A stretch of 64,000 nucleotides of DNA, taken from positions 9,362,001 through 9,426,000 of the forward strand of contig NZ_CP151726.1 in NCBI RefSeq assembly GCF_038443385.1. The letters run 5' to 3'. This stretch comes from Stieleria varia. GTDB lineage: Bacteria > Planctomycetota > Planctomycetia > Pirellulales > Pirellulaceae. Within the stretch, counting starts at the first letter, position 1. Each line of letters opens with the position of its first letter. The notes beneath the pieces are model-generated. The model had not been told where the DNA came from, did no database searches, and saw nothing but the letters and a program-made list of their open reading frames with translations. Positions 2,657 to 57,814 of the stretch are shown here, one piece after another. Made by a program: the position numbers and the translations under genes.

Positions 2657-3832
2657 ATGAGTCAAGCAACGCAAACTGATGTTTCGACAGCCGAGTCGGC
2701 CGTTTACCAACGTTATGCCTCGGCGGCGCAGGCGGTCGAGCCGGAGCTTTGTTGTCCTGTTGATTACCGCGCCGAATACCTGACGGCGATACCCGAGGAA
2801 GTCATTCAGCGAGATTACGGATGTGGAGACCCCTCTCGCTTTGTTTGCGAGGGCGACGATGTACTGGATTTGGGAAGCGGCGGCGGGAAAATCTGTTTCA
2901 TTGCTTCGCAAATCGTCGGAAAGACAGGGTCCGTGACCGGTGTGGATTGCAATCAGGAAATGCTTCAGCTCGCGCGCCGTTCGGCGGACGCGGTTGCGGC
3001 GAATATCGGCTATCACAACACGTCGTTTCGCTACGGTTTGATCCAAGACCTGGCGCTAGATCTTGACGACCTCACTGAGGTGATCGCTTCGCAGCCTGTT
3101 TCTGATGCAACAGGATATTTGCGACTCCGTAACTTGGAGGAGCAGCTTCGTACCGAGCGACCGATGATCGCAGATGAGTCAATCGACTGTGTGCTTTCCA
3201 ATTGTGTTCTGAACCTGGTACGTCAACCTGATCGCAAAAAAATGTTCTCCGAAATCTTTAGGGTGCTTCGGCGTGGCGGACGAGCGGCGATTAGCGACAT
3301 TGTCAGTGACGAGAGCGTGCCCGAACGGTTGCAACAAGACTCAGCTTTGTGGTCGGGATGCATCACGGGCGCGTTTCGTGAGGATGAGTTCCTGGCGGCC
3401 TTTGAAGACGCTGGGTTTCATGGCATGGAGTTGGTCAAGCGAGAAAGCGATCCGTGGCGAACCGTCGAGGGGATTGAGTTTCGAAGCGTTACCGTTGTCG
3501 CCTATAAGGGCAAGCAGGGTCCTTGCCTAGAACGTAATCAGGCGGTCGTGTATCGGGGACCATTCAAGAAAGTCGAGGACGATGACGGTCATGTTTTCCG
3601 ACGTGGAGATCGGATGGCCGTCTGCGACAAGACATTCGGGCTGCTTCAGCAGGCCCCTTATCTCGAAATGTTTGCTGCGGTTGAACCCCGAGAGAGAATT
3701 CCGCTCGAGAATGCTGTGCAATTTGACTGCCGCCGCAGTGCGAAGCGAGACCCGCGTGAGACCAAGGGGACGGATTACGACGCAACGTCGGATGCTCCTG
3801 CCGGTGCCTGTAGCGATGGAGCATGTTGTTAA
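2657..3832 (+). CDS. arsM: ArsM-like arsenite S-adenosylmethionine methyltransferase
   Basis: Class I methyltransferase with the SAM motif VLDLGSGGGK and the ArsM signature sites: the Cys of SNCVLNL (residue 183), the Cys of SGCITGA (residue 235) and upstream cysteines in LCCPVDY and DYGCGDPS (32/33 and 56). In ArsM/AS3MT such cysteines bind trivalent arsenic during methylation. An insertion of about 40 residues lies before the SNC motif, and the protein ends in a Cys-rich tail (CSDGACC). It lies 16 bp upstream of arsS. ArsM plus ArsS is known from cyanobacteria to make the precursor of arsenosugars. The start is uncertain: a GTG at 2606 and ATGs at 2645 and 2657 are in frame. No ArsR regulator is seen nearby. 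Confidence 0.85.
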   Translation: MSQATQTDVSTAESAVYQRYASAAQAVEPELCCPVDYRAEYLTAIPEEVIQRDYGCGDPSRFVCEGDDVLDLGSGGGKICFIASQIVGKTGSVTGVDCNQEMLQLARRSADAVAANIGYHNTSFRYGLIQDLALDLDDLTEVIASQPVSDATGYLRLRNLEEQLRTERPMIADESIDCVLSNCVLNLVRQPDRKKMFSEIFRVLRRGGRAAISDIVSDESVPERLQQDSALWSGCITGAFREDEFLAAFEDAGFHGMELVKRESDPWRTVEGIEFRSVTVVAYKGKQGPCLERNQAVVYRGPFKKVEDDDGHVFRRGDRMAVCDKTFGLLQQAPYLEMFAAVEPRERIPLENAVQFDCRRSAKRDPRETKGTDYDATSDAPAGACSDGACC

Positions 3833-30045: not shown

Positions 30046-31377
30046 ATGATTTGGCTTCGCACTCTCCGCCTCGGCGTCAAAAGTTTGGCCCTGCACCCGC
30101 TTCGCAGCGGCCTGACCATGCTCGGGATCCTGATTGGTGTTTGGTCGGTTATTCTATTGACCGCGATCGGACAAGGCGCCAGCGATCAAGTCCAGCGTCA
30201 ATTCGAATCGCTCGGTGCCACCACCATCATCGTCCGCAGCCAAAAACCGCCCGAGGAAAAATTGGCCGGCATGAGCGCCAGTCAGTACGGTTTGCTGCGA
30301 AGCGACATGGACACGCTGCTTGCCACCGTCCCCACTATCAGGACCGCGATTCCGATTCGCGAAATCAGGCGTCAGTTCACTTACCGCGATCGAATGATCG
30401 ACGGACGACTCGTCGGTTGCACTCCCGGTTACGCCGAAGTCAACACGTTGAAGGTCCGGGGGCAAAGCGGTCGCTTTCTCTCCGACGCCGACGGCATCAA
30501 CCTCGACACGGTCTGCGTGATCGCCGCCGGCGTTGCCGAACGACTTTTCCCTTACGAAGAACCTCTGGGCAAGCGGGTCTACATCCCAGAGAGCAAGGAC
30601 TACTACCGCGTCGTCGGCGTCTTGGAGGCTCGTAATCCATCGGCAGCCATCGGTGGCTCATTGGACTCGCAAGATTTCTCGGCAGACATCTATGTGCCGA
30701 TCGAGACCCTGCGAAGTCGTGTCGGTGACACCATCGTGACTCGCCGTAGTGGACAGTTCCAAGTTGAGATCATGGAACTCAACCAGATCACCTTACAAGT
30801 CAACTCGGTTGACGAAGTCAAAAAGACAAAAAAGATGATTGAGAATCTGCTCAATCGTTCGCACGGTGATATCAACGATGTCGCCGTGGTCGCACCCCTT
30901 GAGTTGCTTGAGCAAGCCAAGAACTTGCGGCTGATGTTCTTGGGCATCGGCGTTCTGATCGCCTGCATCTCCCTTGTCGTCGGCGGCATCGGGATCATGA
31001 ACATCATGTTGGCGAGTGTCACCGAGCGAACTCGCGAAATCGGCATCCGCCGCGCACTGGGTGCCAAGCAGCGCGACATCGTTCGCCAGTTCTTGATCGA
31101 AACGCTCGTGCTCAGCTTCGCGGGGGCCGGACTCGGCGCCCTGCTGGGGTTCCTCGGCCCATGGATGTACTCCCAACTCATCTACGTGGTCAAAGAAGGC
31201 TTTCCGGACAAGTTCGCGGCGTTACCCGAAGCGATTCGTGAAGCCGAACCGACGATCGTTTATGAAATCATCCCATTGGCCATGATCATCGCGGTCGTGG
31301 TCGGTCTCTTTAGCGGACTCTACCCGGCAATTCGGGCCGCCAAGATGAATCCGATCGACGCATTGCGTCACGAATAA
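30046..31377 (+). CDS. MacB-type FtsX/ABC permease
   Basis: A 443-residue permease with an N-terminal helix, a MacB-like periplasmic domain (about 45-280) and three C-terminal helices of the FtsX fold. Conserved GGIGIMNIMLASVTERTREIGIRRALGAK precedes the last helices, and AAKMNPIDALRHE ends the protein. It works with the preceding ATPase and adaptor to move a substrate from the inner membrane or periplasm. The stop shares one base with the start of the CHAD gene. Confidence 0.93.
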   Translation: MIWLRTLRLGVKSLALHPLRSGLTMLGILIGVWSVILLTAIGQGASDQVQRQFESLGATTIIVRSQKPPEEKLAGMSASQYGLLRSDMDTLLATVPTIRTAIPIREIRRQFTYRDRMIDGRLVGCTPGYAEVNTLKVRGQSGRFLSDADGINLDTVCVIAAGVAERLFPYEEPLGKRVYIPESKDYYRVVGVLEARNPSAAIGGSLDSQDFSADIYVPIETLRSRVGDTIVTRRSGQFQVEIMELNQITLQVNSVDEVKKTKKMIENLLNRSHGDINDVAVVAPLELLEQAKNLRLMFLGIGVLIACISLVVGGIGIMNIMLASVTERTREIGIRRALGAKQRDIVRQFLIETLVLSFAGAGLGALLGFLGPWMYSQLIYVVKEGFPDKFAALPEAIREAEPTIVYEIIPLAMIIAVVVGLFSGLYPAIRAAKMNPIDALRHE

Positions 31378-42721: not shown

Positions 42722-45700
42722 ATGGATGAGGCACATGCTTTGCTACCTCAGCAACAACACGTGTCTCCGGTGATTAATCTCTTTCCAAGACAAGTGCTCA
42801 AGAAGTTCGGCAATCACCGCCTACAGAGAAGCATCATGAATTTCATCGCGTCTCACTCAAGTGTACCAGATGAACAGTTGCCAAGCCCGGCTTGCTTTGG
42901 GGAACGCGAGTCAATCGACGAGCCGATCGCGATCATTGGGATCGGTTGTCGCTTGCCGGGCAACATCAAGAGCCCTAACGACTACTGGCGAATCCTGTGT
43001 GACGGGGTCGACACGATCGAAGAAGTGCCTTCGACTCGCTGGGACCAATTCAAGTTTTATGACAGTGAGCTAGGCCAGCAAGGAAAGATCATCACGAAAT
43101 GGGGCGGATTCGTCAAAGACATTGACAAGTTCGATCCAGGCTTCTTTGGGATTTCTCCACGTGAAGCCGCCTGCATGGACCCGCAACAACGATTGGTTCT
43201 GGAGTCTGCGTGGGAAGCGTTGGAGGACGCCGGGCAGCGAGTCGAATTGCTGGCAGGTACGAACGTCGGCGTCTTTGTTGGTGTGTCAACCTTTGACTAT
43301 GGGTTGATGCAAAACACATTCAATGACGTCAGCGGCGCGGGACCGTACACCAACACGGGACAAGCGCTTTCGATCTGTGCAAATCGACTTTCGTTTGTCA
43401 TGAACTGGAAAGGGCCAAGTTTTGCCGTCGATACTGCTTGCTCCTCGTCATTGCTCGCCTGCCACATGGCCGTCAACAGCATTCGTAGTGGTGAATCGTC
43501 GATGGCGATGGTATCAGGTGTCAATTTCATTTGTGCTCCGTCCACCTATGTCGGCTTCACGGCGATGGGCATGCTGTCGCCGGATGGTCGATGCAAGGCT
43601 TTTGATGCATCGGCCAACGGTTTTGTTCGCGCAGAGGGAGGTTGCAGTGTCCTGCTCAAACCGTTGAAACAAGCCTTGGTAGACTGTGACCGGATTTATG
43701 CACTCGTTGCCGGTTCAGCATGTAACCAGGACGGGCACACGCCCGGATTGACGATGCCCAGTGAGGCGTCGCAACAAGCTCTGGTTCTAGAAGCGTGTCG
43801 TCGCTCGCGAATCGAACCGTCGCAGATCCGCTATGTCGAGGCGCACGGCACAGGAACACCCATCGGCGATCCGATCGAGGCCAATGCTTTGGGCTCCATC
43901 CTGGGACGCGGCCGCAATGTTGACAATCCATGTCTGATCGGATCCGTGAAAACCAACATCGGGCATCTCGAAGCAGGTTCTGGAATTGCCGGTTTGATCA
44001 AGGCGGCGCTCGTCCTCAAGCATCGCCAAGTTCCTCCCAACGTGCACTTCAACGATCCCAATCCTGAGATTGACTTTACGGCACTTCGACTCAAAGTGCC
44101 AACCGAGATGACGGAGTTGCCCGTAGGCAACGGCCCGGCCTACGCAGGGATCAATTCATTCGGGTTTGGAGGTACTAACGTTCATGTGGTTTTGCGTGAG
44201 TATCAACCTCTACCGGTGCGGCAGAGCGGAAACGCAAACCATCGTCGCGTAGGGTTCATGCCGATTTCCGCAAAGTGTCCCGAATCCCTCAGAGCGATGG
44301 CAAAAACTTACGCAGACGCAATGCAGGACGGAGGGATGTGGTCCGACGCTTCACTGTCCGACATCCTTTACACCACTTCACAGCGACGAAGTCACCATGA
44401 TTTTCGCACTTGCGTCGTGGCACGAGACAAGAACGAACTCAAGCTGCGTCTCCTCGAATTGGCAGAGAACGACAGTGATCCGTCGATGAAATCGGATCAC
44501 CCTCAACGGGGTGGGGCTCGGCCAATCGCGTTTGTGTTCTCCGGCCAAGGTCCCCAGTGGTGGGCGATGGGCAGAGAGCTTTTACGAAGTGAACCCGTTT
44601 TTAGCGATATCGTCGCGCGTTGCGACTCGCTGATTCAAGAGCTCGGCGTCTGGTCTTTACTAACGGAACTGTCACGCGACGAAGCAACCACTCGTATCAA
44701 CGACACGACGTATGCTCAACCAGCGATCTTTGCAATCCAAGTGGGCCTGGTGGAGCTTTGGAAATCATGGGGGATCAAACCGCATGTCGTTGTCGGACAC
44801 TCGGTGGGAGAAGTCGCTGCTGCATACGCTGCAGGCATCTTGAATCTCAAAGATGCCGTGAAAGTGATCTTCTTTCGTGGGCAAACCATGGGAGTTGTGC
44901 GAGATGCCGGAGCGATGCTGGCAGTTTCCATGACGCCAGACGAAGCCACCAAGTACATTCGCCCATGGAAACATCGAATTGACTTGGCAGCGGTGAACGG
45001 CCCATCGACCGTAACCCTCTCGGGCGACACAAGCATGATCGCACAAATGGAACATGACTTGGAGTCGATGAGGATCTTCACTCGCCGTCTGAAAGTCAAC
45101 TACGCATTCCATAGCCAACAAATGGATCCCGTTCGCAAGGAACTGGTGAACTCACTCGCCGACATCAGGCCTCAGGCTTCATCGATCCCGATGGTCTCGA
45201 CCGTAACGGGGCAAACCATCGATGGGCATGAACTCGGGGCGGACTATTGGTGGAAAAATGTTCGCCAGAAAGTGCTCTTCCTCGACGCAATGAATCAGAT
45301 GCCGGAAAGCGATCAAGCGATATTCCTGGAGATCAGCCCCCACCCTGTTCTCGCCGGTGCGATCGGAGAGTGCTTTGCCGCCAAAGGTCAACAAGCTGAT
45401 GTGGTCACCAGTCTGCGAAGAGGTCAGCCAGAGCGAGCAGAATTGCTCAAGTCTCTCGGGAAACTCTACGGTTTGCATTGTTCGGTTCAGTGGCCGGTGC
45501 TTGCGCCAACAGCAACCTTTCTGCCGCTGCCTGCTTATCCGTGGCACAAACAATCTTACTGGTCCGAGTCCGAGGATTCACGGGTGTCGCGTTTACCCTG
45601 CGAAGGTCACCCAATCCTTGGCGCCCGCGTGCCTGGTTCACGGATGGTCTATCAAGGTTTCATCGACACGCGAATTCAGCCATTTGCGGTGGACCACCAG

Positions 45701-48700
45701 ATTCAAGGTCATGTCCTGATGCCGGGAACCGGGTTTCTAGAAATGGGGATGGCGCTCGGCCGAGAAGTACACGGCGAAGGGAACTTCGTGATCACCGATG
45801 TGGAGTTGCTCAAGGCCGCGTTCATGCCCGTGAAAGAGACCTTAATGACGCACACCATCCTGGACATCAGGACGGGACGCTATTCGATCGAGACGCAGCC
45901 TCTTGGCCAACCTCATCGCCCCTGGACGGTTCATTGCACCGGCTATTTGCGTGAAAGGGCTCCGGTCCCTCCTTCCATTAAACCGGAGTTATCAGATGTT
46001 CGGCGGCGGTGCATCGAGTCCTTGCCGGCAAAGGTCTTTTACGACTTCTTCCGTCGTTGTGGATTCCCTTTCGGTCCCTCTTTCCGAGGGCTCACGCAAA
46101 TCCGACTGGGCATCGGAGAAATGCTCGGTTGCGTGGACGTGCCACCGGAATGTGAGGCAGACTTTGATGATTACTTGTTTCACCCGGCTGTGTTGGATGC
46201 ATGCCTGCAAGGCAACTTTGGTTGCTTCATGACCCACAATCGCACAAGTAATAACCTCGGTGACTTGGAGGAACGGATTCGCAAGGCCGAGATTTTCATG
46301 CCGAGCGGATACGATGAGGTGCGACTGTATAAAAGACCCAATCAACGCATGTGGACCTACGTTCGCATGCTGGAAAGATTCAAGGATCAATCAAGCTCCG
46401 ATGTCTTTATCTTTGACGATGACGGAGAGTTGATTGCCGAAATCCGAGGCTTCAAGGAAACCCTGGTCGGTACCGTTGACGGCAATGCTGAAACGACCAG
46501 TGGCCTGTTGTACGAGTATGAATGGAAGCTACAGCCACACCCGAACACCGACGTAAAGCGACATCGGCTTCCGTTGCTCGCCGATTGTGTCGACGCATTC
46601 AGCGTAACAGAAACACAATCCTGGGACGTGCTGGTCGCTGCGGTCGACAGCGAATCGGAATTGCAATCCCAGTTGCATCCCATCTGCGGTGCCGTGGTCG
46701 CCGGTGCGATGCGTGATCTTGGTCTGCGTGGTAAACCAGGAACCGTGGTTAGCTTTGACGCAGTGTCCAGTCTCCTGAACATCCCGGCGAATCGTTGTGG
46801 GCTCATGCGTCGCTTGTTGGATATCTTGGTTCAAGATCGCATGGTCGAAAGATGTGACAGCGGTTTTGAACTGATGGAGGGCTTCAGTAAGGCATCGCAA
46901 TCAAACGATCGACCATGGCTCGCTGCGTTGCGCCGACTGTTTCATTCCCACCCCGTTGCGTACCCACAACTGATGCTGCTCGCGCGATGTGCAGATCGAC
47001 TGCCCGCAATCCTGCGAGGTGAACTCGACCCGTCAACGCTACTTGCTCCCGATGATAGCGATGAAGTGCGCGAACAATACTGGGTCAGTTCGCCTTCTGC
47101 GCACGTCGTGTTTCGATTGTCGGCTCAGTTCATTGCCAGTTTGTTCCATGACATGAATCCAGGCCGCAAGGCACGAATCCTGGATTTGAAAGGAGGCAGT
47201 GACCGACTGGCCGCCGAAATTCTAGCCGCATTGCCTGCCGGTCTCGTCGAATACGTTTCTGCCGATGTCTCGGAGCACGGATTTGCACAAGCCGAAGAGG
47301 ATCAAGAGAATTTCCAATACGAGGTGATCGTCGCGGATGATGTGTTGTGTCCTGGCGACGACCTGGAGGATGCAATCCGCCGCCTACACAATCGCTTAGT
47401 TCCCGGCGGTGTCTTGCTATTGATCACATCGGACAAAGGTGATCGCCTTTATGACTTGACGCTGGGTTTGAGGGACGCTGAACGGGACCTGACTCATCAG
47501 TCAATTGCAAATTGGTATGACGTTCTTTTCTCGGCCGGGTTCGACGATGCCAGAGTGCTCCATCCTGATCTCCAATCCACTGACGTGACACGTTCAGTGA
47601 TTGTTGCACAGCGATCTTTCGGCGATGCGGCTGCTCAAGCGGACTCGACGACGGAACACCAGGAACTTGCAATTGCAGACATTTCGGATACCCAGGCGAT
47701 CGATGGCGGCGATTGGCTGATCTTTGCCGATACATCGAATGTTGCTGTTGAGCTAGCGGAGCTTGCGCGGCAACAGGGACAATCGGCAATCTTTGTCCAC
47801 GCGGCAGAGTCGTTTGCCGAAATCAGCCATGATCATTTCTCGATCGACCCGACCTCGCTTGAGGACTATCAGCGATTGCTGAAATCGATCAGTGAGCGCG
47901 CTCTCACGCAGGTGGTCTATCTGTGGAGTCACAATGTGCCTGAACTGTCTGTCGACCCCGCATCACTTCAGGCAGTGCAAACATTTAATGTTTTAGCTCC
48001 GATTTTGATCTGCCAAGCTTGGACTCTGATTCACGGTGCCTTACCGATTCGATACTGGCTAGCGTCTCGTTGCGCTCAGTCTGTTGGCAATCTGTCGTTA
48101 ACTCACGCCGTCGGGCAAACTCCGTTGTGGGGAACCGGCCGAGTGGTCATGAATGAGTTTCCACACCTGCATTGCCGTCTGGTTGATCTCGGCGTTGCGA
48201 CCGAGAATGAACTTCGAGCGTTGGTCAATGAGATTCTGGGGGAGTCGGGCGAAGACGAAGTCGCGTTGAGAGACGAAGCTCGATTTGTGCATCGGCTGGT
48301 AGCCAGTTCACTAAGCAAGTACTCGGATCGCGGCGACGAACCCGGGCAACCCTATCGTCTTCATCTCTCCGACTACGGCGCACTTGACGGTATGCGTCTG
48401 CGTCCCGCCGAATTGCCCAGACAGCTAGGCTCGCCGACGCTGGTTGAAGTCGAAGTGCATGCCGCAGCGCTCAATTTCTCGGATGTGATGAAAGCACTGG
48501 GACTCTATCCAGGACTGCAGGAGGGGTTTGTTCCCGTCGGGATCGAGTGTGCGGGAGTCGTTACCAAAGTCGGTGATGAAGTGACCGATTTCCAGATCGG
48601 CGATGAAGTCGTTTGCATCACGCCCATGGCGATCTCAAGCCACACGTATACCGATCACCGATTGGTGGCGCACAAGCCCAAGCAACTCACAATGTTCGAG

Positions 48701-51700
48701 GCAGCGACTCTACCGATCGCTTTCTTGACGGCACGCTACGCATTGCATTATGTCGGTCGGATGGAGTCCGGCGAAAAAGTTCTTGTCAATGCGGCCACCG
48801 GAGGCGTCGGCCTAGCCGCAATCCAGTTGGCGCAGACCGCAGGGGCGGAACTGTACGCGACCGCTGGGACGATCTCGAAACGTGAGTTACTGAAATTTCT
48901 TGGTGTACCCCATGTGATGCATTCACGTACGCTCGCATTCGCCGATGAGATTCGTGAGCAGACGGCCGATCGAGGAGTCGATCTGATCCTCAACTCACTC
49001 TCCGGCGAAGCGATCAGTAAGGGGATGTCCATTCTCGCGGATTACGGTCGTTTTCTAGAAATTGGCAAACGCGATATCTACGCCAACACTGCCTTGGGGA
49101 TGCGTGCATTTCGCAAGAACGTCACCTTCGCGGCAATCGATCTCGATCGAGCCCTACGAGAGAAACCCGATCTCTGCTCGCAGATCTTTCGCGAAATTGT
49201 CGCCGATGCTGAGACGGGTAAGATCATGCCGCTGCCCCATCGCGTCTTCCCTGCCACTGAGTTGGTTGATGCGTTTCGCTACATGAGCAAAGCGAAGCAC
49301 ATCGGCAAGGTGGTGGTTGACATGAAAGGCCAACCCGTTCGCCCGGTTCGCGATCCAACGGAAACGACTGTTCGGTTCAGAGCCGATGCGACTTACCTGT
49401 TGACTGGGGGCCTCGGCGGCCTGGGAAGTCATTTGGCTCAGTGGATGGCGGATCAGGGAGCGCGTTGTCTCGTGCTCGCCAGCAGAAGCGGTGTTTCAAC
49501 TGTCGAAGGCCAGCAGTTGGTGCGAAAGCTGGAGCAACGCGGCGTGCGAATTGTCATTGAGCAAGTAGATGTTTCGCAAGCGGATCAAGTAGCCGGCTTG
49601 ATCCGGCGAATCAAGAGTAATCTGCCTCCGCTCCGCGGAATCATGCACGCTGCGGTTGTCTTGGACGATGGCTTGATCTTGCAGCTCGATCGAGATCGCA
49701 TTGAGCGTGTTTGCGCGCCAAAGCTAAACGGAGCATGGCATCTCCACAACGCCACGCAAGATCACGTGTTGGATTTCTTTGTCTGCCACTCCTCCACCAG
49801 TTCGACCCTCGGAAACGCGGGTCAAGCCAACTATTCGGCCGCCAATGCCTTCTTAGACGGCCTCGCCGAATACAGGAAATCGATCGGGCAACCGGCACTG
49901 ACGGTCAACTGGGGATACTTGGGCGATCTCGGCGTAGCAGCCGGCAATGAAAAACTTGCAGAGCGATTCGCTCAGCAAGGAGTCAGACCGATTGCACCAA
50001 GCGAAGGACTGCCGATCCTTGGAGGTCTGATGGCCTTTCCGATCAATCAGATGTCGGTCATGCGTGTGGACTGGACTCGTCTTCGCCAATTTGCTTCTAC
50101 GATGGCGCGATCACTTCGATTCAGTCAGTTGATGCATACGTCGGCAGAAGGCGAGGAAGCAAAATCACATTCGGGCAGCGACATTCGTTTGCTGGTTTTG
50201 GCCACGGCTCCAGAGGAACGAACGGATATCATGCTGAGTATCGTCCAGAAAAAGGTTGCTCGAGTCTTGGGTACGCGACCAGAGAAAATCGAGCTCGATC
50301 GATCTTTGATGGATCTGGGACTCGACTCTTTGATGGGATTTGAACTTCGCAACTGGATCGAAGGCGAGTTGCGAGTCAATGTTCCGGTCGTCGAATTGAT
50401 GCAGGGGCCGACCGTCCAAAAGCTGACGAGTCTGCTGCTCGCTCAATTGGAGAAAACGGAAACCCCTGTGAATGAAGCGGTCGAGTCGGCAGAGCGTTCC
50501 GATGTCCTTGCGAATCACGTCGCGCGTTTGAGTACGCATCCGCAGCAGGAGGCTGCCATTGCGGGTCTGCTGGCGATGGCAGACGAATTCAAAGATGAAT
50601 TGCAAGGCTGCGACTCGATCGATTTAGTATCGGAAGCCCAATTGCCAGATGATGTGCTAGGCGATGACTTTGCTGAGCGATTGCGAGCGCAGATGCACCA
50701 GCGGCAACCGATTCAATGCATTTTGGTCACTGGCGGGACAGGTTTCCTCGGTGCTTACCTGCTTCACTATCTGCTTGAGAGCAATCCGCAGCTTCAGATC
50801 CATTGTCTCGTCCGGGCGGATTCTGCAGCAGCGGCAATCCAACGACTTCAAGAGAACCAAGAAAAATATTGCCTTTGGAATCCGGGATTTGCGGAGAGGA
50901 TCCATGTCGTTCTTGGCGATGTAACATTGCCACGTTTGGGTATTGATCAGATGACCTACGATCGATTAGCGGACGAGGTCGAATTGGTGTTGCACAATGC
51001 GGCAGGTATTAGCTTTTTGCAGAACTATGAGCAATTGAAACCCGTCAATGTCGCTGGCACGCTTGAGGTGTTGCGATTTGCTAGTCATCGTAGGATCAAA
51101 TCCTATCACCACGTCTCGACACTGTTCGTGTTCTCAATTCTGGATCACCTTGAACTGAACACGGTGAGTGAGAGCGATGATCCCTCTCGCCATGAGTTTC
51201 TGTTTGGCGGATATCTCCAGACAAAGTGGGTTGCCGATCACTTGGTTCAGGAAGCACGACGACGCGGCATGCCTGTCACTATCTATCGGCCTGGAATCAT
51301 CACAGGTGATAGTCGTACCGGAATCTGCAGCGATGACGTGATCTCACGAATGCTGGCCAGTGCAATCCAGCTCGGCTGTTGTCCCGCAGACGAAACAAGG
51401 ATCACGTTCACGCCGGTAGACTACGTCGGCAAAGCGATCGCCACTCTACTGATGTCTCGAGAGAATTCCAGTCGCAACTACCACTTGGTGAATCGAGATG
51501 CGATTCAATGGCAGACCGTCGTCAGATGGCTGGCCGAGTTAGGCTATGACGTGCAGATGCAACCGTATGACAAATGGTTAGAACAACTTCGTCAGAGCAC
51601 GCGGGATGATGAGAGCACGATGTTGTCTGGACTACTGCCGCTGATTCCTGAAGTCCGACTGACGGGACCAACTGCAGATTTGATCAAAATGAACTTTGAC

Positions 51701-51889
51701 TGTGGTCAGTTGGATGAAATGCTGGCTGACACAGGGGTGCTTTGCCCCACCGTGTCGCTGGATTTGATTTCCACCTATGTCAATCACTTTGTTCGCTCCG
51801 GAATAATCTCTCCTGGCCAAACATCGATCGATGGTGAGAGCGACGCCTCACAACAAGCAGCGGCTTCGATGCTGATCGACGAGAACTAG
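42722..51889 (+). CDS. Type I polyketide synthase with terminal thioester reductase
   Basis: 3055 residues. Order: KS (about 67-495; DTACSSS Cys240, His375 in HGTGTP, His415 in TNIGH), AT (about 600-890; GHSVGE Ser694; YAFHS at 794-798, closer to malonyl-type HAFH than methylmalonyl-type YASH), DH (His992 in HQIQGHVLMP, Asp1159 in DACLQ), a degenerate C-methyltransferase region (about 1400-1640; SAM loop changed to ILDLKGG), a structural pseudo-KR (about 1660-1830), ER (about 1890-2205; NAATGGVGLA), KR (about 2225-2450; TGGLGGLG, Tyr2371, LDD at 2314-2316, as in B-type KRs), ACP (GLDSL, Ser2536) and thioester reductase (TGGTGFLG at 2670, Tyr2831/Lys2835). One fully reducing module with reductive release is predicted. 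An ATG at 42836, just before the KS, is an alternative start. Confidence 0.95.
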   Translation: MDEAHALLPQQQHVSPVINLFPRQVLKKFGNHRLQRSIMNFIASHSSVPDEQLPSPACFGERESIDEPIAIIGIGCRLPGNIKSPNDYWRILCDGVDTIEEVPSTRWDQFKFYDSELGQQGKIITKWGGFVKDIDKFDPGFFGISPREAACMDPQQRLVLESAWEALEDAGQRVELLAGTNVGVFVGVSTFDYGLMQNTFNDVSGAGPYTNTGQALSICANRLSFVMNWKGPSFAVDTACSSSLLACHMAVNSIRSGESSMAMVSGVNFICAPSTYVGFTAMGMLSPDGRCKAFDASANGFVRAEGGCSVLLKPLKQALVDCDRIYALVAGSACNQDGHTPGLTMPSEASQQALVLEACRRSRIEPSQIRYVEAHGTGTPIGDPIEANALGSILGRGRNVDNPCLIGSVKTNIGHLEAGSGIAGLIKAALVLKHRQVPPNVHFNDPNPEIDFTALRLKVPTEMTELPVGNGPAYAGINSFGFGGTNVHVVLREYQPLPVRQSGNANHRRVGFMPISAKCPESLRAMAKTYADAMQDGGMWSDASLSDILYTTSQRRSHHDFRTCVVARDKNELKLRLLELAENDSDPSMKSDHPQRGGARPIAFVFSGQGPQWWAMGRELLRSEPVFSDIVARCDSLIQELGVWSLLTELSRDEATTRINDTTYAQPAIFAIQVGLVELWKSWGIKPHVVVGHSVGEVAAAYAAGILNLKDAVKVIFFRGQTMGVVRDAGAMLAVSMTPDEATKYIRPWKHRIDLAAVNGPSTVTLSGDTSMIAQMEHDLESMRIFTRRLKVNYAFHSQQMDPVRKELVNSLADIRPQASSIPMVSTVTGQTIDGHELGADYWWKNVRQKVLFLDAMNQMPESDQAIFLEISPHPVLAGAIGECFAAKGQQADVVTSLRRGQPERAELLKSLGKLYGLHCSVQWPVLAPTATFLPLPAYPWHKQSYWSESEDSRVSRLPCEGHPILGARVPGSRMVYQGFIDTRIQPFAVDHQIQGHVLMPGTGFLEMGMALGREVHGEGNFVITDVELLKAAFMPVKETLMTHTILDIRTGRYSIETQPLGQPHRPWTVHCTGYLRERAPVPPSIKPELSDVRRRCIESLPAKVFYDFFRRCGFPFGPSFRGLTQIRLGIGEMLGCVDVPPECEADFDDYLFHPAVLDACLQGNFGCFMTHNRTSNNLGDLEERIRKAEIFMPSGYDEVRLYKRPNQRMWTYVRMLERFKDQSSSDVFIFDDDGELIAEIRGFKETLVGTVDGNAETTSGLLYEYEWKLQPHPNTDVKRHRLPLLADCVDAFSVTETQSWDVLVAAVDSESELQSQLHPICGAVVAGAMRDLGLRGKPGTVVSFDAVSSLLNIPANRCGLMRRLLDILVQDRMVERCDSGFELMEGFSKASQSNDRPWLAALRRLFHSHPVAYPQLMLLARCADRLPAILRGELDPSTLLAPDDSDEVREQYWVSSPSAHVVFRLSAQFIASLFHDMNPGRKARILDLKGGSDRLAAEILAALPAGLVEYVSADVSEHGFAQAEEDQENFQYEVIVADDVLCPGDDLEDAIRRLHNRLVPGGVLLLITSDKGDRLYDLTLGLRDAERDLTHQSIANWYDVLFSAGFDDARVLHPDLQSTDVTRSVIVAQRSFGDAAAQADSTTEHQELAIADISDTQAIDGGDWLIFADTSNVAVELAELARQQGQSAIFVHAAESFAEISHDHFSIDPTSLEDYQRLLKSISERALTQVVYLWSHNVPELSVDPASLQAVQTFNVLAPILICQAWTLIHGALPIRYWLASRCAQSVGNLSLTHAVGQTPLWGTGRVVMNEFPHLHCRLVDLGVATENELRALVNEILGESGEDEVALRDEARFVHRLVASSLSKYSDRGDEPGQPYRLHLSDYGALDGMRLRPAELPRQLGSPTLVEVEVHAAALNFSDVMKALGLYPGLQEGFVPVGIECAGVVTKVGDEVTDFQIGDEVVCITPMAISSHTYTDHRLVAHKPKQLTMFEAATLPIAFLTARYALHYVGRMESGEKVLVNAATGGVGLAAIQLAQTAGAELYATAGTISKRELLKFLGVPHVMHSRTLAFADEIREQTADRGVDLILNSLSGEAISKGMSILADYGRFLEIGKRDIYANTALGMRAFRKNVTFAAIDLDRALREKPDLCSQIFREIVADAETGKIMPLPHRVFPATELVDAFRYMSKAKHIGKVVVDMKGQPVRPVRDPTETTVRFRADATYLLTGGLGGLGSHLAQWMADQGARCLVLASRSGVSTVEGQQLVRKLEQRGVRIVIEQVDVSQADQVAGLIRRIKSNLPPLRGIMHAAVVLDDGLILQLDRDRIERVCAPKLNGAWHLHNATQDHVLDFFVCHSSTSSTLGNAGQANYSAANAFLDGLAEYRKSIGQPALTVNWGYLGDLGVAAGNEKLAERFAQQGVRPIAPSEGLPILGGLMAFPINQMSVMRVDWTRLRQFASTMARSLRFSQLMHTSAEGEEAKSHSGSDIRLLVLATAPEERTDIMLSIVQKKVARVLGTRPEKIELDRSLMDLGLDSLMGFELRNWIEGELRVNVPVVELMQGPTVQKLTSLLLAQLEKTETPVNEAVESAERSDVLANHVARLSTHPQQEAAIAGLLAMADEFKDELQGCDSIDLVSEAQLPDDVLGDDFAERLRAQMHQRQPIQCILVTGGTGFLGAYLLHYLLESNPQLQIHCLVRADSAAAAIQRLQENQEKYCLWNPGFAERIHVVLGDVTLPRLGIDQMTYDRLADEVELVLHNAAGISFLQNYEQLKPVNVAGTLEVLRFASHRRIKSYHHVSTLFVFSILDHLELNTVSESDDPSRHEFLFGGYLQTKWVADHLVQEARRRGMPVTIYRPGIITGDSRTGICSDDVISRMLASAIQLGCCPADETRITFTPVDYVGKAIATLLMSRENSSRNYHLVNRDAIQWQTVVRWLAELGYDVQMQPYDKWLEQLRQSTRDDESTMLSGLLPLIPEVRLTGPTADLIKMNFDCGQLDEMLADTGVLCPTVSLDLISTYVNHFVRSGIISPGQTSIDGESDASQQAAASMLIDEN

Positions 51890-51890
51890 C

Positions 51891-52616
51891 ATGTCTCCAC
51901 TCAATCGAATGAAAACCATCTGCCGGTTGATCGCGAACAGGGATCGTGGCGACAATCATGCCGAGCGACTGGAGAACTTTTACGCACGGCAGGCGGAGTC
52001 GTATGACGACACCCGTAGTCGCATGCTGCATGGCCGTCAGGGATTGATCGATCTGATTCCGGTCGTGAAGAACTCCGTTTGGATTGAACTGGGAGCGGGC
52101 ACTGGCTCAAACCTGGAGCTGCTGGGGGACCGGATTGACGAGATTCAGCATTTGCACTTGGTCGACTTGTCACCTTCGATGATCCAGATCGCTCAAAAAC
52201 GCATCAAGAGTCGCAATTGGCGGAACGTCACCACGCACCTCGAAGACGCAACCAAGTTTTCGCCGCCCACATCGGCCGACGTCATCCTTTTCTCGTACTC
52301 GCTGACCATGATTCCCAACTGGTTTGCAGCGATCGACAACGCTCGGCGAATCCTCCGCCCCGGTGGAGTCATCGCCGTTGTGGACTACTACGTCTCGCGT
52401 TATCGCCCCGACAATGGCTGGGTTCGGCATGACTGGGCTTGCCGAACCTTCGCTCCCAACGCATTTGCTAAGAATGGCGTTCATCCAAATCCTGATCACA
52501 TCTATTACTTGCACGAATACTTCCAACCATCCTACTTTGCCGAACACGTCAGCAAGCTCCTGGGGCCATTCTTCTCGGCACCCTACTACCAGTTCATCGG
52601 CAACAAGAGCGGTTAG
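51891..52616 (+). CDS. BtaB-like SAM-dependent methyltransferase
   Basis: A 241-residue enzyme. FYARQAESYDDTRSRMLHGR, the SAM loop IELGAGTGSNLELLGD, HLVDLSPSMIQIAQKR, FSYSLTMIPNWFAAIDNARR and VVDYYVSRYRP together resemble the methyltransferase that trimethylates the amino group of diacylglycerylhomoserine in betaine-lipid synthesis (BtaB). No BtaA partner lies in the window, so a different amine substrate is likely, probably linked to the polyketide. The ATG follows the PKS stop after a single base, so both are translationally coupled. The family resemblance is from recall of motifs, so the exact subfamily needs a profile search. Confidence 0.8.
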   Translation: MSPLNRMKTICRLIANRDRGDNHAERLENFYARQAESYDDTRSRMLHGRQGLIDLIPVVKNSVWIELGAGTGSNLELLGDRIDEIQHLHLVDLSPSMIQIAQKRIKSRNWRNVTTHLEDATKFSPPTSADVILFSYSLTMIPNWFAAIDNARRILRPGGVIAVVDYYVSRYRPDNGWVRHDWACRTFAPNAFAKNGVHPNPDHIYYLHEYFQPSYFAEHVSKLLGPFFSAPYYQFIGNKSG

Positions 52617-52683
52617 TGCACAACATCGACTCTTAGCATTGGCAACAATACCTGTCGTGAAGGAATGGCACACGACGTCCTAT

Positions 52684-53928
52684 TCACTTGTCTGCCAAGA
52701 GTGACTCAGACGCCGTTATCTCATTCGTGGGTGCCTGTTTCGTAGGTACCTGTTTCGTAGGTGCCTGTTTCGTTGGGCCGTTCCATTCAATGTCCATTGT
52801 CGCTGCTTGGTCGATGTTCACGGAGTACTTGCGTGCACGTGCAAGTACGGGGAGCAGATTGAATCCAAACATGAGTAACGGTAATGGATCATGCACGGAG
52901 AGCAGAATGTCTTTTCCCCAAATGAACGTGCGTGCCCAACGTTTCAGCTCACTCCACGAACGCACGTAGCCGATTGCCCACAACAACAGGATCAAAGTAT
53001 GTTGAACCGGCCGACGTGATCGGGGGACGAGCATCGGTCCCGTATGTTGCTCAGGATGAACGAACGCGTGTCCTAAATCGATCCGTCTGCGAAACAAATG
53101 CAGCCCGCTGGTGGAGCGTGGATTGCACTCGATTGCAATCACAGACCCATCCTCACGTTCGATGAAGTCGAAAGCAATTTGCCCGGAGAATCGCTCCGCT
53201 GCGACAAATTGGGCTACCCACTGCAGCATTGCGGGATGGGCGATCGGCTCGTAAGCGAACGTGGGGCCGATGCCGGTTGAGAAGTTCATCGGGTAGTTCA
53301 CATGCGCCAGCAGTTTCCCTTCATGGGCGAGGCTGTAGGTGCTCAACTGGCGGCCACTGATGTATTCCTGCGCGACCCAGGGAAACTCGAGGTTGGGTTG
53401 GACCGCGGCAAAATCATCCAGACACTTGGGGCGAACCACTGTGCTGCTTGCGAATCGCGAGTAGACCGGTTTAAAGACAAGCTCGCGGCCTGATTCAAAT
53501 TCCAGTTCGCACGCTCGGCGACTGGTCAGCAGTTTGGTCTCTGGAACCGCCAACTGATACCGACGTGCCTGGTGAATGAATAGCCATTTGCTGTGCAAGG
53601 TGTGCAATTGCGGCCACTCAGGTGCCAGTAGAACGCATGTGTGCGGTATGCGCTCACGTCGCTCGGCGAGATAATAAATTTCCTCGCAGGTCGGAATCAG
53701 CAGGGTTGCCTGTTCTTTGTCAATGATTTCAGCAATAGAGTCGACGTAGTTGTCTGGTTCTCGACTCGGCCAGGGGACGAAGTAATTTCTAGCCACTGCC
53801 CAGGACTGACGGGAGAGATGCCAGCGAAGCGACTCAGCCATCACCACGCGGTAGCCTGAGGCATGCAACAGCCTGACCAGCTCTAGTGCTGCAGGTGCTC
53901 GGCCACCGGTAACCAGGATCGTCTGCAT
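52684..53928 (-). CDS. ATP-grasp enzyme
   Basis: A 414-residue protein. N-terminal Rossmann-like part (ILVTGGRAPAALELVRLLHASG), then an ATP-grasp core: lysine in ELVFKPVYSRFAS, WVAQEYISGRQLST, and metal-binding FDFIEREDGSVIAIECNPRSTSG. The C-terminal hydrophobic segments (LILLLWAIGYV, LPLLMFGFNLLP) may associate with membrane. Enzymes of this group make acyl-phosphate intermediates and join a carboxylate to an amine or thiol. It is opposite in strand to the cluster but lies between the methyltransferase and exporter genes. The last residues are a PTKQ(A/V) repeat made by a 15-bp tandem triplication. The ATG at 53928 is chosen over an upstream start at 53973. Confidence 0.8.
   Translation of the reverse strand: MQTILVTGGRAPAALELVRLLHASGYRVVMAESLRWHLSRQSWAVARNYFVPWPSREPDNYVDSIAEIIDKEQATLLIPTCEEIYYLAERRERIPHTCVLLAPEWPQLHTLHSKWLFIHQARRYQLAVPETKLLTSRRACELEFESGRELVFKPVYSRFASSTVVRPKCLDDFAAVQPNLEFPWVAQEYISGRQLSTYSLAHEGKLLAHVNYPMNFSTGIGPTFAYEPIAHPAMLQWVAQFVAAERFSGQIAFDFIEREDGSVIAIECNPRSTSGLHLFRRRIDLGHAFVHPEQHTGPMLVPRSRRPVQHTLILLLWAIGYVRSWSELKRWARTFIWGKDILLSVHDPLPLLMFGFNLLPVLARARKYSVNIDQAATMDIEWNGPTKQAPTKQVPTKQAPTNEITASESLLADK
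52726..52770. repeat. 15-bp tandem triplication
   Basis: Three contiguous copies of CGT(G/A)GGT(G/A)CCTGTTT at 52726-52740, 52741-52755 and 52756-52770. On the minus strand they encode the C-terminal QAPTK QVPTK QAPTN-type tail of the ATP-grasp protein. Confidence 0.93.
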
Positions 53929-54039
53929 CAGGGGGATTCCTAGTGATATTGGAGCTGCACCGAACTGATACAAAGGGTATCAGAACTCAGCTCGTCCAGT
54001 CGTGACCCGCGGCGCGAAATTGGTACACATCGCCATACG

Positions 54040-54843
54040 GTGAATTGCGTTGACAGCCTTTACGGCTGCGATCAAGATGAATCTAGGAAAACACTACCAG
54101 GACGTTATTCTCCTGCGGCGTTTGAACACAAAATACCGGACGACGTTTTGGCGAGCTCGAACGCAACGCTGCAAATCCGTGACTTGGCAAAGGTCTACCA
54201 AACTGCCGCTGGGACGGTGAATGCCCTGCGTGGCATCAATCTTGACTTTCAACGCGGCGAAATGGTCGCAATCGTTGGACCATCGGGCAGTGGCAAATCG
54301 ACGCTACTCAATTTGATCGGCGTTCTCGATCGACCGAGTTCCGGTGAGGTATCGATTGAAGGCATCCCTGTGAGTTCACTGAACGACAGTGAGCAAGCCT
54401 TGGTTCGCAACCAGTTGATCGGATTTGTGTTTCAATCATACAACCTGATTCACCGATCCACTGTCATTAACAATGTGGCGTTGCCAGGAATGATCTCTCA
54501 TCGTAATCGACGTCAACTGCTGGATCGCGCGAGGAAACTTCTGTCCATCATGGGAATCGCCGACAAATCTCACTGTCGGCCATCGCAACTTTCTGGTGGC
54601 CAGCAACAACGCGTCGCCATCGCTCGTTCATTGATCAACGATCCACCGATCATCTTGGCCGACGAACCAACAGGAAACTTGGACTCAAGCACGGGGCAGG
54701 AAGTTTTTGATTTACTGTGTACGCTCACTCGGCAACTGAATCGAACCGTGATCATGGTCACGCACAATTTGGAACTCTCGCAGTTGGTAGACCGCGCAGT
54801 TTACCTTCGTGACGGGATGGTCGAGCGGGAGATTCGAAATTGA
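54040..54843 (+). CDS. MacB-type ABC transporter ATP-binding protein
   Basis: ATPase with Walker [18 protein letters not shown], signature [14 protein letters not shown], Walker [15 protein letters not shown] and MVTHNLE. The GTG at 54040 gives about 45 residues ahead of the ATPase core, so the true start may lie further in (a TTG near 54148 is in frame). Its stop overlaps the start of the next gene by 4 bases. It powers the three-component transporter of the PKS cluster. Confidence 0.9.
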
Positions 54844-56579
54844 ATTCTTTTTCTCAACCGTCGGCCATCTTGATTCCTGTGCTGCTGGTGATCGGCTCTC
54901 TGGTGCTGGACGCTCGAAAGGCAGACGCTGCGGATCTGGAAGTCGTTGAGTCGTTCTGGACAGATTCAACTCAAACGCAGTCGTCGGTCGCGATGGACCA
55001 GGGGGGCGTTGAAGTCAGCACCGCCGATACCGCAGCCACGTTTGCCGTAAACGTGATCAATCGTCGCGGCGAAGACATCACCGCGATTCGAGCGACGATC
55101 GGTTTGCCCGACGGAATCATTTGCGTCAAGAGTCACGACTCCCAGGCGACAACGGTTTGTCCGGGCATCACTCGTGCCGGAGAAATGTTCACGCTCTTGT
55201 TTCCGGTAGAGATCACATCGTCATACCTGGACAAAACCTTTCGCTGCTCACTGGTGATCGATTACTCCGCCGGATCGAAACGTGATACGATTCGACAAAC
55301 GTTGACCGCCAACTTGCGGATGACAGGCGATACCAACCTGGAATTGACACCGATCAACGGCCTGTCGCCTGGATCGACATCCGCTCTGAAGTTCCGACTG
55401 AGTAATCGAGGTACTGCCAGTGCGACGGGGATCAGACTCTCCCTACCTGGCATCTCGGGTATGAATCCGAGCACTCAGCAACCTGCGTTGTCTGTGCTTG
55501 GGCAAAGGTCATTTAAGCAAGTTTCGTTGAGTCCAGGGCAGTCCGTCGATTGGGAAACCTCCCTCTACGTCAATCCCTTTGCGACCGGCTCACTGCAGTC
55601 ACTCGATGCGGAAGTTCGTTACACCAACGCTTGTCTAAGGCAGAAACGAATACAGACTGCGTTGGGCGTCTCTATCTTCGCTGCGCCGAATAGCATGTCT
55701 CTTGAGTGCAGTGAACCAAATGCTCAGCTCCACGCGTCCGCAGGAAAAATCTCCGCGCTGGCAGTCGAGTTCTGTAATCGCTCTGGACATGAGTTGTCCG
55801 ACGTCTCTGCTTCCGTACGCTCTGGAAACGACGCACTGAACGTCATGGGGCAACGAAACTGGATGTTTGACAGGGTGGATGTTGATGGGATCATTCCGCT
55901 GACGATCTCGGTCTTTGCAGCAAAAGAACTGATGGGCCGCGTGTCTACGCTTGGTGTTTCATTTCAGTTCGTCGTGGATGGCCAACCACACGCCGAAATG
56001 ATCGAACTAAGTCTCTACAGTGAGGGCGAGATTCTCGTTCGACTCAACGACGTCGAGGTCGGCGATATCGCCAGCGTGCCCCATCTGACCGGCAACCTGT
56101 TGAACGAAGGAGTCGGGACCGCCCTCTTTTCGACATTAGAAGTGATCGATACCGAGGGCAATGTGATTGCGGAATCCATCTACCTAGGCGACTTGGTGGA
56201 AAACTCGCCGATTCCATTTAGCATCCCTTTAGGCGATTCCTTTTCGCATATGTCTGGAGATCGTATCGTACGACTGCGTTTGAGTTACCAGGATGCTTTG
56301 CGTAATCCAACCACAAAGCTGTTGCAGACAACCGTCTCCTTTACTTCGCGTGCTGAAACCGCGACTGCAACAACAGATGCGACAGATGAGCCCTACGGTA
56401 ACGCCTTTTCGATCTTCTGCTTTGTCGCCGGGATCGGCATCGGATTTCTGGTTGCTATCCTGCTACGTCGAAAACACAACGCTGAACTCCAGCGTGTTTT
56501 AGAAGAAAGCAAGCGTCGAGGAGACATGAGTCTCGACGAGGCGATCCAGTCGTCAGCCCTCACGACGAGTGAGCAATGA
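54840..56579 (+). CDS. Membrane-anchored extracytoplasmic subunit of ABC system
   Basis: A 579-residue protein with a TTG start overlapping the ATPase stop (TTGA). Signal peptide (residues about 8-30), a large beta-rich exported region resembling repeated CARDB/NEW3-like domains of S-layer-type proteins (e.g. SALKFRLSNRGTASATGIRLS and HLTGNLLNEGVGTALF), and a C-terminal transmembrane helix (FSIFCFVAGIGIGFLVAILL) followed by a cytoplasmic basic tail. Proteins of this layout sit between the ATPase and FtsX permease in some transporters, probably as the surface partner. The 4-base overlaps on both sides argue for a fixed stoichiometric complex. Substrate unknown; the neighbouring PKS product is a candidate. 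Confidence 0.75.
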   Translation: MNSFSQPSAILIPVLLVIGSLVLDARKADAADLEVVESFWTDSTQTQSSVAMDQGGVEVSTADTAATFAVNVINRRGEDITAIRATIGLPDGIICVKSHDSQATTVCPGITRAGEMFTLLFPVEITSSYLDKTFRCSLVIDYSAGSKRDTIRQTLTANLRMTGDTNLELTPINGLSPGSTSALKFRLSNRGTASATGIRLSLPGISGMNPSTQQPALSVLGQRSFKQVSLSPGQSVDWETSLYVNPFATGSLQSLDAEVRYTNACLRQKRIQTALGVSIFAAPNSMSLECSEPNAQLHASAGKISALAVEFCNRSGHELSDVSASVRSGNDALNVMGQRNWMFDRVDVDGIIPLTISVFAAKELMGRVSTLGVSFQFVVDGQPHAEMIELSLYSEGEILVRLNDVEVGDIASVPHLTGNLLNEGVGTALFSTLEVIDTEGNVIAESIYLGDLVENSPIPFSIPLGDSFSHMSGDRIVRLRLSYQDALRNPTTKLLQTTVSFTSRAETATATTDATDEPYGNAFSIFCFVAGIGIGFLVAILLRRKHNAELQRVLEESKRRGDMSLDEAIQSSALTTSEQ

Positions 56580-57814
56580 GAGCGATCCTGGATATCTTGA
56601 GGCTCGCCACCGGCGCGCTCTGGGAACGCAAGACACGCACCTTGTTGACAGTATTGATGGTTGCAGTTGGTTGCAGCTTGATGATCGCGTTGAAGGGTCT
56701 GACAGCAGGATTCACGAGTTTCATAGACCTGCAGTTTGCAAAGTTAGCGCCAAACATACTTTTCGTGAGCAGCGCACAGGACTCAAACAACGATGCCTAC
56801 TTCGCCAAATCGGCACCTGCTGTCAAAGCGATCCTGAATGATGTCGTGGCAAAACGAATTCGCAGCTCCGCCTGGGTCGCAGATGTTATCCCGGTCTATC
56901 AAGGATTAATCAGCCTGGAGTCTCATGGCCGCACGGTGGAGTCCACTGTTTTTTCAATCGATCCGACAAAACTGGCTGTCGTTGCGCCGACGATGACTTT
57001 GACCACCGGTTCGAAACTTCGTGCAAACGATCCCTCAGCGATCCTGTTTCCAAGACGCCTAGCCGAACCGCCCGGCCAGCCTCCCTTCGTCGCCACGGGG
57101 CAGACGGTCAAAGCCACCTACTCGTCGGTTTCCCCCGATACGGGGCATCCGACTGTCATCACTCGATCTTTCGTCGTTTCAGGATTGATCAACGACACGG
57201 GTGATCCAAATATCGATCGTGGAATCGTGATGAACCACGCGGCAAGCAATCGGCTGCTTCAAAAGAATGGTAGGTACGATGGACTATTGGTTGTCGCAGT
57301 GTCTGCTGACTACGTTTCGTCGGTCGAAGCGGATTTGCGGGAAATGTATGGCCGTGACGTTGGAATCTCGACCCCACGTGCTGTCCTGCAAACATTGAAT
57401 GAATTCATCGATGCGTTCGGATCATTTACCGATAGCACTGCCATCATTGCTTTGCTAGTGGGAGCCGTTGGAATCATCACGACACTATACACGTCGGTCA
57501 CTGAACGAACTCGCGAGATCGGTACCCTTAAAGCACTCGGTGCCGACAAGAGATTTGTGCTGGCGATGTTTCTAACGGAGGCGAGTGTCATCGGCGTCGT
57601 CGGCGCGACCGCCGGGGTGGGGTTGGGCATCGTCGGCGGCTACGCCCTCATCGAGCAGTTTGCCGCCACTCGTCCTGATTTGGTACCCGTCTACCGGGTC
57701 GAAGACCTCGCATGGGTTTGGGCCTTAACCGTCATCCTTGCCTTGCTCGCCGGACTCTATCCCGCATGGCGTGCCGCAAGAGTCCCAGCGATCACTGCGC
57801 TGCGACGAGACTGA
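56576..57814 (+). CDS. FtsX-like ABC permease
   Basis: A 412-residue permease: N-terminal helix (TLLTVLMVAVGCSLMIALKG), an extracytoplasmic domain (about 45-270), then three helices with AVGIITTLYTSVTERTREIGTLKALGAD and the terminal AARVPAITALRRD. The ATG overlaps the stop of the surface-protein gene by 4 bases. With the ATPase and surface protein it makes the exporter of the PKS cluster. Confidence 0.9.
   Translation: MRAILDILRLATGALWERKTRTLLTVLMVAVGCSLMIALKGLTAGFTSFIDLQFAKLAPNILFVSSAQDSNNDAYFAKSAPAVKAILNDVVAKRIRSSAWVADVIPVYQGLISLESHGRTVESTVFSIDPTKLAVVAPTMTLTTGSKLRANDPSAILFPRRLAEPPGQPPFVATGQTVKATYSSVSPDTGHPTVITRSFVVSGLINDTGDPNIDRGIVMNHAASNRLLQKNGRYDGLLVVAVSADYVSSVEADLREMYGRDVGISTPRAVLQTLNEFIDAFGSFTDSTAIIALLVGAVGIITTLYTSVTERTREIGTLKALGADKRFVLAMFLTEASVIGVVGATAGVGLGIVGGYALIEQFAATRPDLVPVYRVEDLAWVWALTVILALLAGLYPAWRAARVPAITALRRD

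Follow-up and report, generated by a model that had tools for sequence, protein, structure and literature searches.

A possible strain-specific gene cluster for an exported, modified polyketide lipid in Stieleria varia

Six genes and their polyketide synthase

The window analysed in this study is a stretch of 64,000 nucleotides from the 9.72-Mb single-contig genome of Stieleria varia, and its subject is a set of six open reading frames (ORFs) at 42722-57814 that may direct the synthesis and export of a polyketide lipid. A type I polyketide synthase (PKS) gene is followed by a methyltransferase gene, and an ATP-grasp ligase gene lies antisense between the methyltransferase gene and three transporter genes. 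All coordinates agreed with those of an earlier annotation made from the DNA sequence (hereafter, the original prediction), start codons being fixed by a mechanical rule.

The PKS (42722..51889, plus strand; 3055 aa) carries one complete set of ketosynthase (KS, residues 67-443), acyltransferase (AT, 604-911), dehydratase (DH, 963-1247), enoylreductase (ER, 1905-2199), ketoreductase (KR, 2223-2400) and acyl carrier protein (ACP, 2508-2571) domains, and ends in a thioester reductase domain (2667-3028) that matched TIGR01746 at 315.0 bits against a cut-off of 213.35. The single-module reducing PKS with a terminal thioester reductase that had been predicted was thus found, and a 3055-codon open frame with such a domain order exceeds chance. 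All the catalytic motifs sought were present: DTACSSSL, HGTGT and NIGH in the KS, GHSVGE and YAFHS in the AT, HQIQGHVLMP and DACLQ in the DH, GGVGLAAIQLA in the ER, GGLGGLG, LDD and YSAAN in the KR, LGLDSL in the ACP, and GGTGFLG and YLQTK in the reductase. The YAFH motif in the AT suggests malonyl specificity. The PKS also contains a degenerate in-line C-methyltransferase region (approximately residues 1468-1585), which is probably dead because ILDLKGG stands where the glycine-rich S-adenosylmethionine (SAM) motif is expected.

By sequence, the nearest solved structure from KS to DH was mycocerosic acid synthase (MAS; 9d2z, 1031 bits), and the nearest solved reductase was MxaA (4u7w, 272.5 bits). 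MAS is used iteratively, and its similarity to the window PKS suggests that the window module may be used in the same way.

The PKS search covered 98 relatives, the S. varia genome included (E ≤ 1e-150, three candidates scored per genome), and gave matches in 37 of them. Within the genus, 11 of the 13 other genomes matched with a different PKS, mostly of approximately 2200 aa and 40-44% identical over KS-DH. Neighbouring genes were read in a few of the PKS relatives, namely those in G021, in the S. varia genome itself (G000) and in a congener (G001), and the reductase domain was checked in the G021 PKS only. The different PKS of G000 and G001 is preceded by an FtsX-type permease gene and followed by a non-ribosomal peptide synthetase (NRPS) gene, whose domain order is C-A-T-TE in G000. 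These two loci (L070 in G000 and L072 in G001), where the reducing PKS, NRPS and permease genes are accompanied by an S49 peptidase gene, are 48-61% identical between the genomes, and G000 keeps its PKS, NRPS and permease at 4.93 Mb.

The top-scoring relative, in G021, is a PKS of 3455 aa and 37% identity with a reductase at its end (35% identity over that part), which is too distant to be an ortholog of the window PKS. It is followed directly by cobW and preceded by kinase and SIS genes, with no methyltransferase gene directly behind it in the 1.7 kb covered downstream. The other five window proteins had no match on this 19.9-kb contig (ORFs of at least 90 aa, E ≤ 1e-8), which covers 7.8 kb before the PKS and 1.7 kb after it. 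Relatives of the reductase domain alone, at less than 60% identity, occurred in 86 plasmid records, and this domain is therefore a common part.

Relatives of the accessory genes

The ATG of the methyltransferase gene (51891..52616, plus strand; 241 aa) starts one base after the PKS stop (51889/51891), as had been predicted. The SAM methyltransferase matched in 51 of the 98 relatives (E ≤ 1e-20) and in 41 of 392 genomes sampled from the phylum (E ≤ 1e-40), the S. varia genome being counted in both sets, which overlap. Together, the searches yielded 87 distinct matches outside the window, 64 of whose loci were examined; BtaA was encoded within the few surrounding kb at 55 of these and not at the other nine, and the identity of the window methyltransferase to these relatives was 40-51%. 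Two of the neighbouring BtaA proteins were confirmed as PF11899 (389.8 bits). No BtaB model matched, and the assignment to the BtaB family rests on this adjacency of BtaA in the relatives, which bears out the "BtaB-like" label of the original prediction. Among the 13 congeners, 12 had a BtaB match, with BtaA alongside in 11; the match in G003 was fragmentary, with no BtaA in the 6 kb covered, and G008 gave no match. The S. varia genome gave neither a BtaA (PF11899) match nor a second BtaB match. In seven of the 13 (G001, G002, G003, G005, G010, G012 and G013), the BtaB match shares a contig with the other PKS, at a distance of approximately 17-46 kb. None of the genes on the btaAB side in G001 had a match in the 56-kb stretch of G000 used for comparison.

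In a tree of 65 rows, where long branches may be misplaced, the window methyltransferase formed a long branch outside the BtaB clade of the genus. That it is the genus's own BtaB, displaced, was not favoured: the tree excluded it from an 18-row clade holding 12 BtaBs of the genus (97/93 support). The longest branch (1.5) belonged to L120 (G038:C179), a BtaB match that adjoins BtaA and comes from a genome with two such matches. Of 65 columns with a conservation of at least 93% among the other sequences, the window protein keeps 55, those for SAM binding included. Positions 166-195 contain five of the ten changes, W188A and W191A included; K171 is also replaced, by Tyr, and no other alignment row with a residue at W188 shows the change to Ala. 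When changed conserved columns were counted by leaving each sequence out, the window protein had 9 of 64, and two deeply branching planctomycete BtaBs had 10 of 67 and 11 of 66, respectively; by this count, the number of changes is not exceptional. The fold predicted from an alignment of 32 sequences had a pLDDT of 82.8, and many of the 50 Foldseek matches listed were N-methyltransferases, the highest target-normalised TM-score of the list being that of the phosphatidylethanolamine N-methyltransferase 8ys9 (0.77). N-methylation by the window enzyme is likely, given its kinship to BtaB.

The ATP-grasp gene (52684..53973, minus strand) encodes 429 aa as listed, with the ATG at residue 16 as the probable start. 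Its product matched the PRK06849 family at 358.2 bits, below the cut-off of 406, and Pfam ATP-grasp_3 at 21.5 bits (cut-off, 23.2); the enzyme had been predicted, with no mention of its strand. A six-sequence profile of the enzyme also finds carbamoyl-phosphate synthase in the PDB. The ATP-grasp enzyme occurred in 5 of the 98 relatives and 3 of the 392 phylum genomes, own genome included, and in none of the 13 congeners. A scan of genome contigs with the six-sequence alignment gave 295 relatives, the best 80 of which (L123-L202) were analysed with 3-21 kb of DNA per locus; they were mostly from Paenibacillus, Brevibacillus and Chloroflexota. A gene for β-ketoacyl-ACP synthase III (KAS III) was nearby in 75 of the 80, within 300 bp in 71, and 68 had an OleD-like short-chain dehydrogenase/reductase (SDR) gene besides KAS III (within 300 bp in 48). 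Genes for a metallo-β-lactamase (MBL)-fold protein (68 loci), an F390-synthetase-like protein (46) and an unnamed protein of approximately 385 aa (60) were also frequent. KAS III was missing at L147, L151, L156, L161 and L164, of which L156 and L161 are short, and a lone KS match (27-28%) was seen at L132 and L150. The window enzyme is 35-43% identical to the members of these KAS III operons, and no KAS III or OleD-like SDR gene was among the 16 window proteins scanned at 30046-61383. In an ATP-grasp tree, the window protein branched singly close to the base, flanked by one group mostly of Chloroflexota and another mostly of Bacillota, a position that is uncertain.

The recurring operon is exemplified by L124:8842-16450, with the order KAS III (PRK07204 in those scanned), ATP-grasp (PRK06849), OleD-like SDR, MBL-fold, F390-synthetase-like and ~385-aa genes. 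It occurs in Paenibacillaceae and Chloroflexota, in some planctomycetes and in two cyanobacteria, one of which has KAS III only; targeted searches of the open-licence literature gave no paper on it, and this widespread operon may have broader importance. Six planctomycete ATP-grasp homologs outside the window were examined. KAS III and OleD-like genes lie near those at L066, L068 and L103 and are missing at L067, L069 and L104; L104 (G168:C79:23284-24483) is broken by one TAG stop. L069 (PRK06849, 414.1 bits) stands in a row of PF01596 O-methyltransferase, ATP-grasp and D-Ala-D-Ala-ligase-like genes (L069:9692-13037 in G061, a genome from the same order) with a photolyase-like gene close by. 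This row fits MysB-MysC-MysD as described in PMC10510106, and L069 is probably a mycosporine-type cluster in a planctomycete.

The three genes of an ATP-binding cassette (ABC) exporter lie on the plus strand where the original prediction had placed them, joined by two 4-base overlaps. The ATPase (54040..54843; 267 aa) matched PF00005 at 119.5 bits and TIGR02211 at 233.9 bits, below the cut-off of 307.75, and the permease (56576..57814; 412 aa) matched PF02687 (74.0 bits) and PF12704 (43.8 bits), so that both are of the LolD/MacB/FtsX kind. Between them, a 579-aa protein (54840..56579) with hydrophobic helices at both termini and a beta-rich body occupies the slot in which an adaptor of the MacA/DevB type might be looked for. 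It had no family match above cut-off, a weak sub-cut-off match being to NPCBM_assoc/NEW3, and no DevB-type membrane-fusion domain was found in it. No match (E ≤ 1e-5) was obtained in the 97 other relatives, the 391 other phylum genomes or the plasmid set, so it was detected in its own genome alone (1 of 98 and 1 of 392); it may be diverged past recognition rather than new. Its structure model was too poor (pLDDT 38.6) and was not used. A second MacB/FtsX-type permease gene, at 30046-31377 and approximately 11 kb left of the cluster, adjoins a CHAD-domain gene.

A genomic island was considered and rejected: the G+C content (0.534-0.550 in the cluster, 0.56-0.585 from approximately 8 to 42 kb, 0.52-0.55 in the first 10 kb and 0.528-0.539 on the right side) has no clear step, and the window holds no tRNA gene. 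Nor was an empty site found, since the one good left-flank match, in G004 (79% over approximately 521 residues), stands without matches to further window genes beside it. Promoter and terminator scans gave fewer hits than shuffled sequence (4 versus 8.3 and 9 versus 15.7, respectively) and were uninformative.

A tentative pathway and its alternatives

Based on these results, we tentatively propose, with a probability of roughly 0.4, that the six genes form a strain-specific cluster for an exported polyketide lipid that is reduced and N-methylated. The PKS would iterate like MAS on an acyl starter and malonyl units, giving a fully reduced chain; both the iteration and the chain length are what we infer from the domain content and its relatives. 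The chain would be unbranched because the internal C-methyltransferase is probably dead, and the MxaA-like reductase domain would free it as an aldehyde or primary alcohol. The BtaB-family enzyme, whose gene is probably transcribed together with that of the PKS, would methylate a head-group nitrogen, either in the product or in one of its precursors. The ATP-grasp enzyme would activate a carboxylate or enol as a phosphate and couple to it an amine, which is probably an amino acid drawn from the free pool of the cell. Finally, the LolD/FtsX-type transporter and the unique membrane-anchored 579-aa protein may carry the lipid out of the inner membrane.

Several observations weigh against this proposal. 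Release of the chain by thioester reduction leaves no carboxylate, so that release and the ATP-grasp step do not join in an obvious order. The substrate of the ATP-grasp enzyme may be another part of the molecule, such as a head made of an amino acid, or, as for MysC, an enolised ketone; alternatively, the enzyme may not belong to the pathway. Its gene is on the opposite strand, KS and AT together (type I PKS, E ≤ 1e-5) were seen at none of the 80 ATP-grasp loci (3-21 kb each), and L147, the relative with the highest identity (49% over 289 columns, clipped at a contig end), adjoins 2-aminoethylphosphonate genes. A scan of 17 window and flank proteins showed no aminotransferase, phosphopantetheinyl transferase or regulator. 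For the methyltransferase, the Foldseek matches listed also include the C-methyltransferase CouO and the O-methyltransferase RebM, the best PDB sequence match is a weak one to the O-methyltransferase roqN (27.2 bits), and the predicted fold does not fix the methylated atom. Moreover, no second genome with the set was found when the ATP-grasp enzyme, the 579-aa protein and the methyltransferase were searched in the 98 relatives and 392 phylum genomes and the PKS in the 98 relatives.

The unity of the six genes rests on their position in one genome. Each gene type is already known, and the combination is unmatched in the relatives searched; no characterised cluster with this gene set was matched in the searches made, in agreement with the original prediction, and nothing on it was found in the titles and abstracts listed by searches of the open-licence literature. 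The reductive PKS, BtaB-like methyltransferase, ATP-grasp enzyme and ABC exporter of that prediction were all recovered, while its reading of the genes as one conserved pathway was not supported.

The foremost alternative, unlikely but to be taken seriously, is that the unit comprises the PKS and methyltransferase only, or possibly the PKS alone, and that transfer brought the ATP-grasp and ABC genes beside them by chance. The minus-strand position of the ATP-grasp gene, the missing KS-AT pairs in the DNA covered around its 80 relatives, the 579-aa protein unmatched in 391 other phylum genomes and the G021 contig, where a PKS-reductase stands without these genes over the 1.7 kb downstream and 7.8 kb upstream covered, are all consistent with such an arrangement. 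However, in other phyla the relatives of the ATP-grasp enzyme occur together with ketosynthase and reductase genes, which makes a chance landing beside a PKS-reductase less likely, and FtsX-type permease genes adjoin other PKS-NRPS genes too, in G000 and G001.

It is also conceivable, though improbable, that the ATP-grasp enzyme is MysC-like. MysC works via a phosphate, and here the enzyme would phosphorylate an enolised keto group left on an incompletely reduced chain, an amino acid would displace the phosphate to give an enaminone, and the methyltransferase would then modify the head; the product, with equally low probability, would be a lipid-amino acid chromophore and not a simple alcohol. 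PRK06849 scores both the window protein (358.2 bits) and L069 (414.1 bits), a member of the MysB-C-D-like operon in which O-methyltransferase (PF01596), ATP-grasp and D-Ala-D-Ala-ligase-like genes stand in a row. According to PMC10510106, MysC adds free glycine. Such a step requires no amine-making gene, and addition of a free amino acid in this way would explain why none was seen. MysC joins its amino acid to an enol-ketone ring, and the amide bond regarded as possible in the original prediction may or may not be formed. Nevertheless, the window enzyme is nearer the KAS III-operon proteins (35-43%) than L069 (27-30%), all reducing domains of the PKS look active, and no MysA-like cyclase gene is among the six. 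A pathway like that of heterocyst glycolipids, in which a DevBCA-like exporter would put a long-chain polyketide alcohol, methylated instead of glycosylated, in the envelope, is very unlikely: a PKS with a thioester reductase and a LolD/DevC-like transporter are present, and Anabaena uses hglB (ACP and thioester reductase) and devBCA (PMC8064123), but the 579-aa protein has no detectable DevB membrane-fusion domain, the single fused PKS is not hglBCDE, and no glycosyltransferase was among the scanned window and flank proteins.

Returning to the proposed lipid cluster, a more specific version of it has the BtaB-family enzyme used on the PKS chain in place of the ordinary BtaA/BtaB route, which the strain would lack and which 11 of its 13 congeners appear to retain with the two genes adjacent, giving a glycerol-free polyketide lipid with a quaternary ammonium head and its own exporter. 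We consider this version a long shot; if true, a membrane-lipid enzyme would have been recruited to specialised metabolism. Few planctomycete metabolites have been assigned to genes: a 2025 review (PMC12078418) counts five compounds or classes and states that genes or clusters are associated with two of them, the carotenoids and the alkylresorcinols. For expression work, the six genes are a practical target, being compact and including a complete reducing PKS.

Comparison with known systems

The mycobacterial reducing PKS MAS, the best solved-structure match, resembles the window PKS in having one KS-AT-DH-ER-KR-ACP set, whereas the YAFH motif of the window AT suggests malonyl and not methylmalonyl units. 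MxaA, the closest solved match to the reductase domain, closes a PKS-NRPS line and makes an alcohol. The iterative PKSs of Dictyostelium are also reducing, with a methyltransferase region and a C-terminal thioester reductase, and differ in being eukaryotic; according to PMC12828403, the methyltransferase region is inactive in Pks16, and a probable thioester reductase follows the ACP in approximately 19 of 40. BtaB shares 40-51% identity and 55 of 65 conserved columns with the window methyltransferase, which differs in its long branch, in Ala at both W188 and W191 and Tyr at K171, and in a genome without a BtaA match.

Hgl/DevBCA shares with the window set a PKS-type reductive release and a LolD/FtsX-type exporter; in the window, the PKS layout is another one, and neither a DevB adaptor nor, among scanned genes, a glycosyltransferase was found. 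MysC is matched by the PRK06849 model, which is not MysC-specific and which matches the window enzyme below its cut-off, and both have a methyltransferase neighbour. The window protein is only 27-30% identical to the MysC-like L069, and no MysA-, MysB- or MysD-like neighbours were seen among the scanned proteins. The KAS III - ATP-grasp - OleD-like SDR - MBL-fold - F390-synthetase-like operon of Paenibacillaceae and Chloroflexota shares with the window the ATP-grasp family and nearby ketosynthase and extended-SDR chemistry. The enzymes of that operon are free-standing, whereas in the window the PKS itself carries both the KS and the reductase.

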